A stretch of 38,031 nucleotides of DNA from Candidatus Zixiibacteriota bacterium (lineage in GTDB: Bacteria; Zixibacteria; MSB-5A5; GN15; FEB-12), in the NCBI GenBank assembly GCA_024278515.1, contig JAJRTA010000189.1, positions 1 to 38,031 on the forward strand, given 5' to 3'. Positions 2,881 to 10,640 of the stretch are shown one piece after another. Within the stretch, counting starts at the first letter, position 1. Every line of letters starts with the position of its first letter. The position numbers and the translations under genes are program-made. The notes below the pieces were generated by a model. It saw nothing but the letters and a program-made list of their open reading frames with translations. It searched no databases and was not told the DNA's origin.

Positions 2881-2909
2881 AAAGACCGCTTCCTCTAAAG
2901 GAAGCGGTC
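2878..2909 (-). terminator. Rho-independent terminator of the thioredoxin-like/dockerin gene
   Basis: A 10-bp perfect stem (GACCGCTTCC, 2893-2884, with GGAAGCGGTC, 2909-2900) around a 6-nt loop is followed on the minus strand by TTTTTT (2883-2878). It lies 30 nt after the stop of the secreted selenoprotein candidate. Confidence 0.9.
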
Positions 2910-2939
2910 CTGTAATTATTCCGGTGGTTCGGTAGTCAG

Positions 2940-4406
2940 TTAGTTGCCACAAGTCGCAGGCGCAACTCCGCCGGTGAACATGTAGTCAACCAGATAAACC
3001 ATGTCCGAAATATCGATATCATCAGCCGTGTCCGGCTCAAGATCGGCGCCCGGATTCGAACCGTCGATATTGGCCTCGGCGAAGCAGGGCGGCGCGGCTC
3101 CACCAGTGAACATATAGTCAACCAGGTAAACCATATCCGAAATATCGATACCGGTCTCGATGAGGTCTATGTCGGTGCCGATGCCGTCAACGTTGCCGCG
3201 AATCTCACCGACACAACAGCCGGGTATGACAACGTCGATCGTATGACCGGCCGACCAGGCTGTTTCCACATCGAAAGCATCTTTGGCCTGGACTTTGACC
3301 AGGTATGTGCCTTCAGTGTTATATGTGTATGCCGCCGAGCAGGTGACTCCGGACGCATACGGTCCCATCCAGTCGCTTATGCCTCGGCCGTCACCCCAGT
3401 CCCAACGATAGTAGATATTATCAGTGTCGGGGTCGGTGGTGGCGGATTCAAAAGTAACCTCCACACCGGTCTCACTTTCAACCGGACCAGCATCAACCGC
3501 CGGATCCGAGGGGACCGTGTTGGCCGGGACTCCGTTGCCAATACGCACTTCGATATCGAATACATCCGTATTGACATGTTCGATTCTTACAATAAGATCA
3601 AGCCCGGCTGCTACGACGTGGTTGCTGCAGTTCCCTATCATATTTCGGATAGCTGTTTCGCTGGTTCCGATATACAGGCCGTAACCACCGTCACCATAGA
3701 TAGACGGCGTCCAGGCGGTGTTAAGTTCATTTCCTCGTACGTTGGCATAGGGGTTGCCGGTAGGAGCATTGCCGAAAACTATTGCTGAGTATATGAAGTT
3801 GTAAGTACCGGCGGTATAAAGATTGTCCAGCGCGACCCGCGCTGCAGGACAGGAACTTCAGTACTTCTGAGTGCCTTCCTCTACAAACACCGTGTGGGTG
3901 CCGTTGCCGGCGACATTTTGTCCGGCCTGCCCGGGAATCGCCTGAGCGGCGGCGTCGACATAATACGCAAAGAAAGGATTGCCGGAGGGCGGATCGGAAT
4001 AGGCCGTATGGGGGGTGGGGTCGGAAAGGACAGCCTGAGCGCATATATTCCCTTCCGTAACTGCTGTGAACCCGCCATCAGCGGACGCATCCCAGGTAGT
4101 TGTCCAGGTGTAAACTTCACCGTCATTGATAGTCACACCGACATCTCCGGCCCAGTTGAGAAAACCGAAGGCGTAAGGAGCGTTGTAAAGATCCTTGTAC
4201 CGTGAAACCGGTTCACTCATCCAGATCCTCAAATTGCCCTGATAAGTGGCTCTGTTACCATCAATGGATTCAGGAAACACCGGGCCCGCAACCTCACCTA
4301 TGGCGAGTTCGGGTATCGGTGTTGGACCGGCGGCCAGAACCGCCGAACAGATCAGCATCGCCGCAAGCAGGGCAGTGCCGACCAATAACCTAATACCGTT
4401 TTTCAT
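2940..4406 (-). CDS. Secreted thioredoxin-like protein with PKD and dockerin repeats; probable selenoprotein (in-frame UGA = Sec183)
   Basis: Two open frames, 4406-3858 and 3857-2940, are in the same phase and separated by a single TGA at 3860-3858; together they make 488 residues. The order is: signal peptide (1-25, ends VLAA); an unknown domain (about 30-165); a thioredoxin-like domain starting VFVEEGTQKY, then U183-S-S-C186-P, with a cis-Pro region WTPSIYGDGGY (P234); a PKD-like domain (about 295-395, with DWGDG); and two dockerin-type repeats containing DISDMVYLVDYMFTGG (about 400-488). In related secreted thioredoxin-like domains the TGA position is the first Cys of CxxC, so UxxC is the natural reading. 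A SECIS-like hairpin follows. The start has GAGG 7 nt upstream, and a good promoter and terminator bracket the gene, which argues against decay. Likely role: extracytoplasmic thiol/disulfide chemistry. The alternative is a pseudogene with one nonsense change. Confidence 0.72.
2971..3150 (-). repeat. 48-bp direct repeat encoding the two dockerin-type motifs
   Basis: Bases 2971-3018 and 3103-3150 are near-identical, with only a few differences over 48 bp. Both encode the segment around DISDMVYLVDYMFTGG. The copies are within the coding sequence and reflect duplication of the calcium-binding-like dockerin unit. Confidence 0.85.
3824..3851 (-). promoter_or_regulatory. SECIS-like hairpin just downstream of the in-frame UGA
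   Basis: Counting from the base after UGA, nucleotides 7-10 (UGUC) pair with 31-34 (GACA). A 3-nt bulge CUG follows at 11-13. Then a perfect 7-bp helix CAGCGCG/CGCGCUG (14-20 with 24-30) is capped by the loop GGU (21-23). Bacterial SECIS elements lie directly after UGA, have a short apical loop with an early G (GGU in E. coli fdhF) and place the loop roughly 16-37 nt from UGA; here it is 20 nt. The bulged U also has a counterpart in E. coli. The element sits inside the coding sequence. Confidence 0.6.
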
Positions 4407-4495: not shown

Positions 4496-4523
4496 AATAT
4501 ACTTTTTTTATATTAAATGTCAA
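4496..4523 (-). promoter_or_regulatory. Strong sigma-70-type promoter for the thioredoxin-like/dockerin gene
   Basis: On the minus strand TTGACA (4523-4518) and TATATT (4501-4496) are separated by 16 nt of A/T-rich DNA. This gives a leader of about 80 nt. The promoter lies just after the stop of the upstream beta-barrel gene, so the selenoprotein candidate has its own transcription start. Confidence 0.65.
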
Positions 4524-4540
4524 GGGCAATTTATACGCCT

Positions 4541-5863
4541 TCAACGCCTGATAGCCACACCCAGGGAGATAACCCAGCGAAAATAGTCATAACGGTCAAT
4601 AGTCGATGAGTTGTCGCTGTATTCTATACTGAAAACAGGCTCGATAGTAAGATTACCCCAGGATTTGGGCATCGGCATCTGGAAACCGAGATAGATCGAT
4701 TTCTTTATATCGTTACGGTCCACGGGAGTGGGTACGTAGTTACCGAATCCTGTCTGTCTTAACTCTTCATGCTGTAGATATTTTTTGTCCCAGTAGCCGA
4801 CAGAGAGATTGGTAATGAGCCGGGGAATCAGATAGCTTTTTACGTTGATTGTTGCGCCGTGTCCTTCCCAGGCAACAGCAAAAGGATCCAGCAGGACGGC
4901 TGTCTCACCAGCCACAATTATATCCGATCCGGATACGAAATGCCTGTAAGTTCCGGTAACGTTGATACCGGTACGAGAATTAAGTTGAAGGGAAAATCTG
5001 GGTGACAGATAAACAGTTCCAACCCGAAGATCCGACACACCGTCGTCATAAACATCATAAATCAATAAATTGACCGTGTCCACAATTGTAATTGTATCAA
5101 CATAAGTTCTTTCAATAGTCTGGACTGAAAATCCTGATTCCATATCCATCACGAAACTGCCTATGATCGACCAGTTTCCTCCAAGGACAGCATCAACAAT
5201 CCGATTGCTGTGACCCACGTTTTTCAGGAAAAAAGCGTTGGTGTATTCATGGTGATTGACCGCTATCTGACTTCGCAGGTGAATCCCGGGGCTGTACTGG
5301 TAGCCGAAAGCGGCGGTGAAATTATAGTCGGTAGTATTGTATATTTTGAAATCACGTTTATGTACCGTAGTATCTCCGAGATACTGAACCGTGTCGAAAG
5401 CGAAAGTATTTCTGTCATCATACGCGTTGCGGCCAATTCCGCCAGTAATATAAACCGAGAACCGACTGTTGGCTGCGGTTGGAATCCATGTCAGATTGAC
5501 ACTGCTGTTGACGGCAGAAAGGCTGTTCAGGACCTCGTCAAGGTCTTCCTTGAGCACGAAGGTAGTATCGGGATTGAAGTTTCCCGTAATTATAGTATCG
5601 TATCCCGGCTCGGTGTTTTCCTTGATCCTAATCAGGTTGCGGTCGATCGATCCGCTCAGCTCGAGTTTGGGGAAAGGATACGCTTTAACCGCGAAGTGTC
5701 CTGTGCTGGTAAAATCCGATATCTGCGTCCAGTCACTCAGCAGGTTGTTTTCATACTTTTGACCAATACTGGCCTCGAATGAAAAGCTGGACAATGACAT
5801 GGAATATACCGCGACCGCCGGCGTCAACAGCAGGGGAATCAGAGCGATGGTGGTTTTAATCAT
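4541..5863 (-). CDS. Predicted outer-membrane beta-barrel protein
   Basis: A 440-residue exported protein of unknown family. It opens with a signal peptide (MIKTTIALIPLLL, Ala-rich end). The rest consists of alternating polar/hydrophobic strands, rich in Tyr, Thr and Asn, that close with an aromatic-flanked strand ending in VAIRR. This pattern is typical of a beta-barrel of 16 or more strands in the outer membrane, but I see no family-specific motif. I chose the ATG at 5863 over an upstream alternative because it overlaps the TGA of the preceding gene as ATGA, which implies translational coupling with that small protein. The pair may work together at the cell surface. Substrate or function cannot be stated. 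Confidence 0.7.
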   Translation of the reverse strand: MIKTTIALIPLLLTPAVAVYSMSLSSFSFEASIGQKYENNLLSDWTQISDFTSTGHFAVKAYPFPKLELSGSIDRNLIRIKENTEPGYDTIITGNFNPDTTFVLKEDLDEVLNSLSAVNSSVNLTWIPTAANSRFSVYITGGIGRNAYDDRNTFAFDTVQYLGDTTVHKRDFKIYNTTDYNFTAAFGYQYSPGIHLRSQIAVNHHEYTNAFFLKNVGHSNRIVDAVLGGNWSIIGSFVMDMESGFSVQTIERTYVDTITIVDTVNLLIYDVYDDGVSDLRVGTVYLSPRFSLQLNSRTGINVTGTYRHFVSGSDIIVAGETAVLLDPFAVAWEGHGATINVKSYLIPRLITNLSVGYWDKKYLQHEELRQTGFGNYVPTPVDRNDIKKSIYLGFQMPMPKSWGNLTIEPVFSIEYSDNSSTIDRYDYFRWVISLGVAIRR

Positions 5864-6276
5864 ATTCCGCAGTTTCCGCCCGGACAAGCCTCGGCGCCAA
5901 GCGCGGCATTTGAACCGATTTCATTAAATCCGGTGGTTGCGCTCGCCCGGTTAATCATCAACGCGCGTACCGCGAAACAGCGTAGCCCGAACCTTTGGGC
6001 GTTGGTCTTTTTGGTCTCAACAGCAGGATTTTGCAGCTCTCCTGAGAAAATGTCGGCTGTCGAGGCTACGATTTTGGGAGCTTCGACGGGACAAACCAAA
6101 TCCGAAATACCATCTTTGTTGACATCGGATTCGTTATCATCGAACCCGTCACCATCAAGGTCAATAAACACCTCGACATCTCCACAACTATTATCGGCCA
6201 TCAATGGACTGGCCGACTGCAAAATCATCAAGCCTCCAACGATAATGACACTAATCCTCAGGATACGTAACATCAT
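5860..6276 (-). CDS. Small exported protein with EF-hand/TSP3-like acidic loops
   Basis: A 138-residue protein with a signal peptide (MMLRILRISVIIVGGLMI to about SPLMA). Next comes an acidic stretch with DLDGDGFDD and DVNKDGISD, matching the DxDxDG calcium-loop pattern of thrombospondin type 3 and dockerin repeats. The remaining 80 residues carry KIVASTADIFSGELQ and a Gly/Cys-rich end (ACPGGNCGI). The ATG at 6276 has GGAGG 10 nt upstream; a longer reading to 6351 lacks such support and would place 25 residues before the signal peptide. It overlaps the beta-barrel gene by 4 nt. No known family is recognised; a periplasmic or surface partner of the barrel is a guess from the coupling. Confidence 0.6.
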   Translation of the reverse strand: MMLRILRISVIIVGGLMILQSASPLMADNSCGDVEVFIDLDGDGFDDNESDVNKDGISDLVCPVEAPKIVASTADIFSGELQNPAVETKKTNAQRFGLRCFAVRALMINRASATTGFNEIGSNAALGAEACPGGNCGI

Positions 6277-6461
6277 GTAAAAACTGCCTCCGCACGTCAT
6301 AATATACTCTGCCTGCGCTGACCGGCAGGACAGCCATCTTCCAATCTGCACGCGTAAAATACAAAAGTATCGGAGCTTAACAAGGATTTTCTGTTTTGTC
6401 GCCCGGCAGACAAACGCTATACTTTACTTTGTGGTAATGATTTACGTCGGGCTCTTTTATT

Positions 6462-8824: not shown

Positions 8825-9308
8825 CGGTATATCATTCCTTACCTGTTATTTCTATCATTCCAAGGCCGGAAGGTAACCATATTCCCCGAATCCTCCAAGC
8901 ATGATGTCACAGCCTTCCCTGTAATCTCAGGACCTTCACAATTATGTCTGAAGATTTCAGTAGGTGCAAATTGAATCATAAAGATTGACATTTTCAACAA
9001 GTGGTAATGGTTGTTTATGAAATTGAAAACTTTCCATTGTTCGCCGCACGGGAGAAACGACGAACACGGAATAGGTCATAAAACATCATGCCGGACTTGA
9101 TCCGGCAGCCAATTCTATTTTGTGTCATGCTGAACTCGATTCAGCATCCGGAAAACAAATGTACGTGGATTCCGGGTCAGGCCCGGAATGACGTAATGAT
9201 GACTGGGTGGCTCACCCTTCAGAGTGAGGGCTTTTCGAATTCGCAGTCATCTCGATTGCCATTAATCGAAGTATGATGTACAATGAACAGCCGGATATAG
9301 GATTTATT
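8825..9308. other. Intergenic region between divergent genes, with a hairpin cluster
   Basis: About 480 bases without a supported gene separate the EamA gene (minus) from the reductive-dehalogenase-like gene (plus). The right half carries three palindromes (listed separately) and a further imperfect hairpin, CTCAC with GTGAG near 9212-9230, followed by CTTTT. A short frame across the palindromes is an artefact of the repeats. No convincing promoter was found for the plus-strand gene. Confidence 0.7.
9089..9189. repeat. Array of three perfect hairpins with 5-nt loops (dispersed-repeat type)
   Basis: TGCCGGA/TCCGGCA (9089-9107), ATGCTGAA/TTCAGCAT (9127-9147) and ATTCCGGG/CCCGGAAT (9169-9189) are each perfect inverted repeats with 5-base centres (CTTGA, CTCGA, TCAGG), spaced about 20 nt apart. 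The style (GTCATGC..., ...CCGGAATGACG) resembles the widespread intergenic repeats of many Gram-negative genomes. It is probably non-coding and mobile in trans or transcribed as structured RNA. Confidence 0.75.
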
Positions 9309-10640
9309 ATGGCCTTATCAATAATGATTTACATTTTCAGTGGTCTTCTGATTTCAGCATCCCTTATCGCTTTTGCAATAGTGTCAGTAAAAGAGCGCAG
9401 GATCACGGCGACCCTGCGCTCCATTATTCTTGTGATCGCGGTTATTGTGGGCTGGACGGGCTGGTATTTCCTGGTCGGATCGGAGACTTTCTGGTTATTC
9501 TTACCACCGGTTGTTGTCATGTCCGGGTTGGTTCTGTTTTTCATTCCACTGGGACAAATTAAACCTCTGGCAATAGGGAAGATTACCGAACGGGTCGATG
9601 AACGTGACACTGTTTTCGCCCGTGAGGAATATCTGCCGGGATCAGAAAAATACGACCGGTACTACTCAACACATCCCGAGTTGAGAGAGGTAGATGATCG
9701 CATACGCCGCCTTCCGGAATTACTTGAACCGGGCGGCCGATATTATGACGAGGCACCGGCCGGTTCGGCCAGGGCGGATTTTCGTGAGATCGAGGATATG
9801 ACTTCCCGGGTTGACGGAAAAGTTACATCTCCGCCCGCCCCTGCCGATCCTGACTGGATGACAGCCTGGGTGAAGGAAGAATTGCTAAGTGCGCGAGCTG
9901 ACGAGGTCGGTATCGCGAAGCTCAACCCGATGTATGTTTACTCCCATGTCGGTCGTGGTCCGGAGCCATGGGGGCAGCCGATCGAAAACAGACACAAGTA
10001 TGCCATTGTATTTACTCTCGAAATGAACTATCACGAGGTCGAAACTGCGCCGCACTTGTCGATCACTCGTGAAACAGCACGTAAATACAAGCAGGCGGCC
10101 GTGGTGTCTATCAATCTTGCGAAACAGATACGCGAGCTGGGTTACCCGGCTCGCGCTCATATTGCCGGAAGCAATTATCATTTAATGCTCCCGCCTGTTG
10201 CCTGTGACGCCGGTCTCGGCGAACTGGGACGAATGGGATACCTGATTTCCCCGAGGCTGGGCGCGCGGGTTCGTCTTGGAGCTATCACCACCGATTTACA
10301 ACTTCAGACAGACAGGCCTGTAACATTTGGCGTACAAGACTTTTGCGATAAATGTCTGAAGTGTGCGATTAACTGCCCGTCCGGCGCCATCCCATCCGGT
10401 CCCAAAACCGATATCCGGGGTGTGGAAAAATGGGCGCTTCATGTTGAGCGATGTATCCACTACTGGCGCGTTATCGGGACCGACTGCGGTCTTTGTATGA
10501 AAGTGTGCCCCTACAGCCATCCGCCAACCTTTTTCCATAATCTGGTCCGGGCGGGCTGTCGGCGATCGAGCTTTGCCCGCAGGGTTGCTGTCTGGGGGGA
10601 TGATTTTTTCTATGGTCGAAAGCTCCGCCTGCCCGGATGA
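9309..10640 (+). CDS. Membrane-anchored reductive-dehalogenase-like Fe-S protein
   Basis: A 443-residue protein. Three N-terminal membrane helices lie at about 2-25, 39-54 and 60-80. A soluble region follows, with the RdhA/QueG-type cobalamin-fold block AGLGELGRMGYLISPRLGAR near 300-320 and a two-cluster ferredoxin tail: C346-x2-C349-x2-C352-x3-C356-P, then C382 and C393-x2-C396-x3-C400-P. Reductive dehalogenases use corrinoid and two 4Fe-4S clusters to remove halogens, or are relatives such as epoxyqueuosine reductase. Here there is no Tat signal, and the anchor is fused to the catalytic chain instead of being a separate RdhB. The ATG at 9309 (AGGA 6 nt upstream) is preferred; 9273 is an alternative that adds 12 residues. 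No regulator or corrinoid genes are adjacent, so the substrate is unknown. Confidence 0.75.
   Translation: MALSIMIYIFSGLLISASLIAFAIVSVKERRITATLRSIILVIAVIVGWTGWYFLVGSETFWLFLPPVVVMSGLVLFFIPLGQIKPLAIGKITERVDERDTVFAREEYLPGSEKYDRYYSTHPELREVDDRIRRLPELLEPGGRYYDEAPAGSARADFREIEDMTSRVDGKVTSPPAPADPDWMTAWVKEELLSARADEVGIAKLNPMYVYSHVGRGPEPWGQPIENRHKYAIVFTLEMNYHEVETAPHLSITRETARKYKQAAVVSINLAKQIRELGYPARAHIAGSNYHLMLPPVACDAGLGELGRMGYLISPRLGARVRLGAITTDLQLQTDRPVTFGVQDFCDKCLKCAINCPSGAIPSGPKTDIRGVEKWALHVERCIHYWRVIGTDCGLCMKVCPYSHPPTFFHNLVRAGCRRSSFARRVAVWGDDFFYGRKLRLPG

Follow-up and report, generated by a model that had tools for sequence, protein, structure and literature searches.

A predicted secreted UxxC thioredoxin-like selenoprotein of a Candidatus Zixiibacteriota bacterium and its conserved barrel and CxGGxC neighbours

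GOS_C, an Omp28-related family (NF045500; PMC2398784, PMC13188914), appears to be the nearest catalogued relative of the selenoprotein candidate described here. In GOS_C the UxxC thioredoxin is N-terminal and an Omp28-type domain comes after it. The thioredoxin-like UxxC core, the occurrence of both selenocysteine (Sec) and Cys homologs and a bacterial SECIS are common to GOS_C and the candidate. The candidate also shares its fold, a Sec-first CxxC motif and a putative cis-Pro with Sec thioredoxins and thiol:disulfide interchange proteins (PF00085, PF13098; UxxC). For most uncharacterised thioredoxin-like selenoproteins, a general role in thiol redox chemistry is assumed (PMC13188914).

The window analysed was a stretch of 38,031 nucleotides from a Candidatus Zixiibacteriota bacterium. 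A sequence-only reading of this window had proposed a probable new secreted selenoprotein from one TGA in an otherwise open frame, without giving the strand. We located the gene on the minus strand at 2940..4406. The frame opened with an ATG at 4406, closed with a stop at 2940 and, when TGA was translated as U, gave 488 residues. Its single TGA was codon 183, and both sides lay in one frame, as had been proposed. The plus strand reads TCA at 3858-3860, which corresponds to TGA on the minus strand. The surrounding residues were VFVEEGTQKY-U-SSCPAA, with WTPSIYGDGGY further on, and the TGA opened a U-x-x-C motif (U183-S-S-C186), the place of the first Cys of CxxC in the proposal. The domain order was signal peptide, N-terminal beta domain, thioredoxin fold, PKD domain and dockerin-like repeats. 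The signal peptide was visible in the translation as MKNGIRLLVGTALLAAMLICSAVLA, and Pfam placed the PKD domain at residues 311-381. The two DISDMVYLVDYMF repeats were dockerin-like as judged by eye, and Pfam gave no dockerin match in this protein. The expression signals named by the sequence-only reading were recovered as pattern matches: a consensus promoter on the minus strand at 4496..4523 (TTGACA-16-TATATT, 11/12 matches), and a terminator-like hairpin of 13 pairs followed by a T run, 3' of the gene at 2882..2911 on the same strand. TGA kept its ordinary stop role in the window, where it ends 9 of 28 genes, and a reassignment of the code was ruled out on this ground.

The genome of the window was 98.9% complete in 257 contigs and was searched for the selenocysteine machinery. 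A canonical tRNA-Sec with anticodon UCA was found at 67.9 bits, and SelA (507 bits) and SelB (310 bits) were encoded by adjacent genes. Three of the four genes that the sequence-only reading had named for a search, selA, selB and selC (tRNA-Sec), were thus present, and selD was not found in the fragmented assembly. The SelD candidates in this genome were rejected, since their sequences read as HypE-like and PurM-like. Across 133 genomes of the phylum, hits over the cut-off were obtained for SelD in 118, usually with a single in-frame TGA of its own, for SelB in 114 and for tRNA-Sec in 107. Because SelD was over the cut-off in most relatives and the local matches were HypE- and PurM-like, the simplest reading was that the missing SelD probably sits in an assembly gap.

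The 270-residue core was used as a query against the same 133 genomes, and 52 of them had matches. Sixty-eight homologs, all from this phylum, were extracted and aligned. Column 183 held Sec (TGA) in 44 and Cys in 24, with no other residue, in a count that includes one copy whose alignment was shifted by one residue. Every homolog without TGA had Cys at this column. The argument that such a placement is beyond chance was borne out, as this codon was TGA or Cys only in all 68 homologs. The second Cys (C186) was kept in 68/68, and the invariant residues were H171, U/C183, C186, P234 and G241. At least 14 switches between Sec and Cys were counted on a quick tree, which was built without the Sec/Cys columns and has many weak branches. 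After the TGA, dN/dS was 0.169 and 0.183 in two genus pairs and 0.116 in a paralog pair; these ratios are rough because synonymous changes were near saturation. Both halves of the gene were under purifying selection. A scan of the genome contigs with the full-length protein matched only relatives of the C-terminal tail. The contig of the family member G057 was identical to that of G134.

Several copies showed variations of this pattern. A second Sec paralog was present in the same genome (G000 C234:7687-8553; L057, L139) with the context SGSGG-U-TTCPQA. It had no barrel or small-protein neighbours, and close copies occurred in G044 and G046. Tandem paralogs, one Sec and one Cys per genome, were seen in four pairs (L023/L056, L026/L071, L044/L072 and L048/L083). 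In L026 (G013a), three residues rather than two separated Sec and Cys (U-GSS-C). A second in-frame TGA was observed upstream in L080 (G095c), in the context TDTLT-U-ELEWDG, and may stand for a further Sec or stem from an assembly error.

Folding and a scan with the bSECIS model were performed on the region after the TGA. The model takes a loop 16-37 nt after the UGA, a G in the first two loop positions and an energy of at most -7.5 (PMC13188914). A SECIS-like apical stem-loop, CAGCGCG-GGU-CGCGCUG, was found at 3828..3844 on the minus strand. Its GGU loop started 20 nt after the UGA and its energy was -14.1 kcal/mol, which fits the model. Taken alone, the hairpin of the window gene was modestly better than shuffles (z -1.3; p 0.04). 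Across the family, 64% of the Sec copies fitted the model versus 8% of the Cys copies, and about one third of the Sec copies fell below its threshold. The mean model hairpin energy was -9.2 kcal/mol in Sec copies and -3.1 kcal/mol in Cys copies (p 1.4e-4). Synonymous-codon shuffles gave a mean z of -1.08 for Sec copies (p 2e-9) and -0.04 for Cys copies, showing that synonymous codons that strengthen folding were chosen in Sec copies and not in Cys copies. Pairing in the same register was seen in 70% of Sec copies and 40% of Cys copies; these Sec-versus-Cys hairpin statistics ignore shared ancestry.

Two other readings of the codon were weighed against these data. Were the TGA a genuine stop or the result of a nonsense mutation, we would be dealing with a pseudogene or with a 182-residue product. 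This agrees with the use of TGA as a stop by other genes of the window. It does not agree with the recurrence of this TGA in 44 homologs at a single column that is otherwise always Cys, nor with purifying selection that continues past the TGA. In addition, the partner Cys of the CxxC, the putative cis-Pro and the PKD and dockerin-like parts all lie beyond the TGA. We regard a stop here as extremely improbable. A pseudogene was rejected by the conserved TGA column, and sequencing error was excluded by the same TGA in 43 other genes. Cys can be inserted at UGA in certain conditions, which speaks for decoding as Cys or Trp, whether through a suppressor tRNA or through near-cognate read-through. 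Such a reading was judged very unlikely, given the complete selA-selB pair and the canonical tRNA-Sec, a hairpin specific to TGA copies, Cys as the sole replacement at the column, and the SelD of relatives, which likewise has one in-frame TGA. The machinery, the Sec/Cys column, the hairpin and the selection after the TGA together indicated that UGA 183 is almost certainly read as selenocysteine, as far as sequence data can tell. The window gene very probably encodes a selenocysteine-containing secreted thioredoxin.

The fold was modelled with AlphaFold2 from 40 homologs, with a pLDDT of 85.7. The model showed the beta domain and then a thioredoxin fold, with a beta/alpha core, UxxC in its usual place where the first helix begins and P234 at the cis-Pro position. 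In the PDB the whole model matched thioredoxins best, at Foldseek E-values slightly higher than 0.001. Pfam matches of thioredoxin type were weak, the best being Glutaredoxin with an E-value of 0.0042, in 3 of 40 members.

We also considered whether the protein is no more than a diverged member of the Omp28-related GOS_C/NF045500 family. A profile-profile comparison with hhalign gave a probability of 97 over the thioredoxin core at 18% identity, and weak matches were found with a best E-value of 0.0018, which speaks for membership. However, the window protein scored 13.6 bits against a cut-off of 200 bits, and the cut-off was reached in 0 of 133 genomes. NF045500-like Omp28-related proteins with an in-frame TGA did occur in the phylum (G112, G115, G117, G122 and G123; L110-L116), themselves below the family cut-off and at loci other than those of the window family. 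The architecture also differs, with the thioredoxin N-terminal in that family and after a beta domain here. Filing under NF045500 was rejected for the score far below the cut-off, and simple membership was considered unlikely. Judged from these profiles, the kinship to GOS_C appears real but remote.

Two conserved genes lay beside the selenoprotein gene on the minus strand. The first, at 4544..5890, was examined with AlphaFold2 and Foldseek and is found beside the thioredoxin gene in most relatives. Its model pointed to a clear outer-membrane beta-barrel of no specific family. The MtrB/PioB and PEP-CTERM-associated barrels (TIGR03509, TIGR03016) gave weak matches in a few barrel members, with no member shown at the family cut-off. 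The second gene, at 5863..6279, encodes a small, apparently secreted protein with a signal-like N-terminus, a calcium-binding-like DxDGDG motif and C-x-G-G-x-C at the very C-terminus (here CPGGNCGI). In an alignment of 16 small proteins, C132, G134, G135 and C137 were invariant. No selenocysteine was seen in the small-protein tail, and every clear tail had Cys. Of 21 long neighbourhoods, 17 had the barrel and small gene next to the thioredoxin gene, in the orders small-barrel-thioredoxin, thioredoxin-small-barrel and divergent, across several families. Among the 133 genomes, 47 had the thioredoxin family and the barrel together, 4 the thioredoxin alone and 13 the barrel alone (Fisher 4e-19, from counts uncorrected for phylogeny). 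Some of the barrel-only genomes reflected contig edges and most held second-class cassettes. In this second class (n = 15; L140-L154), barrel and small protein occurred without the CxGGxC tail and without a thioredoxin gene. The small proteins of L140-L154 mostly ended in CDGTG-type repeats. The tail and the thioredoxin gene were present in 17/17 first-class cassettes versus 0/15 of the second class (Fisher 2e-9), a contrast to be read with the caveats that each class may be a single lineage and that first-class members supplied the profile. The promoter-like site of the selenoprotein gene itself counts against assuming co-transcription with the barrel and small-protein pair.

Elsewhere in the window, a plus-strand gene at 9273-10640 encodes an iron-sulfur protein that resembles reductive dehalogenases; its score of 159.3 bits lies just under the cut-off of 160.35. 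A GlpX-like fructose-bisphosphatase homolog lies at 1048-2727 on the minus strand, with 559 aa compared to a family model of 334 positions. In G044 and G083, too, a GlpX-like gene lay close to the cassette.

The barrel and small-protein neighbours may be accidental or serve an unrelated function, and the thioredoxin-like protein would then act as a reductase of general scope outside the cytoplasm or as a peroxide scavenger. This would accord with the general thiol redox role assumed for most uncharacterised thioredoxin-like selenoproteins (PMC13188914). Copies without a barrel or small-protein neighbour, namely the C234 paralog (G000b), G040 and G044b, are consistent with it. On the other side, the linkage was kept in at least three gene orders and several families, and the tail and the thioredoxin gene were jointly absent in the second class. 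We consider accidental neighbourhood possible but doubtful. Based on the cassette linkage and this joint absence, the CxGGxC tail is somewhat favoured as the redox partner of the UxxC protein. With similarly guarded confidence, a phylum-wide extracellular redox system is suggested, in which a barrel and a CxGGxC protein would have a thioredoxin of their own, often a Sec-using one, to service them.

The preferred reading of a selenocysteine-containing secreted thioredoxin suggests the following course. SelB with tRNA-Sec would insert Sec at the UGA, guided by the hairpin loop 20 nt downstream. We infer that this incorporation actually takes place. The product would be a thioredoxin-fold oxidoreductase with selenocysteine as the attacking residue, or Cys in some species. 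Sec183 and Cys186 might form a selenenylsulfide/selenolthiol pair, adjoined by the putative cis-Pro234. Secretion would proceed via the signal peptide, and the protein is probably held outside by the PKD and dockerin-like parts. A redox reaction would follow, in which the UxxC protein most likely forms, cleaves or exchanges the disulfide in its target, the neighbour's C-terminal CxGGxC tail. This may occur at the outer-membrane barrel of the same cassette, either in the periplasm or on the cell surface. The computed support consisted of the Sec/Cys column, the machinery, the hairpin, the selection, the fold and the gene linkage.

The 119-family selenoprotein inventory of 2026 (PMC13188914), compared by name, held no further candidate for this family. 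The deep-Sep text (PMC12013277) made no mention of it, and a literature search found no papers on the UxxC family of the window. The proposal of a probable new secreted selenoprotein was supported by the machinery and the Sec/Cys column. Absent from that proposal were the SECIS hairpin, the existence of a phylum-wide family, its remote GOS_C/Omp28-related kinship and the conserved gene neighbours. The family would add to the latest inventory a selenoprotein of about 50 species in one phylum. Gene finders that take UGA as a stop would truncate its UxxC members. The many Sec/Cys swaps, some between tandem copies in one genome, offer a direct comparison of Sec with Cys. The linked small protein is a testable candidate substrate, which is rare among predicted selenoproteins. 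If the proposed reaction is true, this would be a selenoprotein with a defined substrate, unlike most predicted selenoproteins. The window protein has an N-terminal beta domain and a tail of PKD and dockerin-like parts that the PF00085 and PF13098 proteins lack. Compared to GOS_C, the window protein has a beta domain before the thioredoxin core, and the PKD and dockerin-like parts after it.
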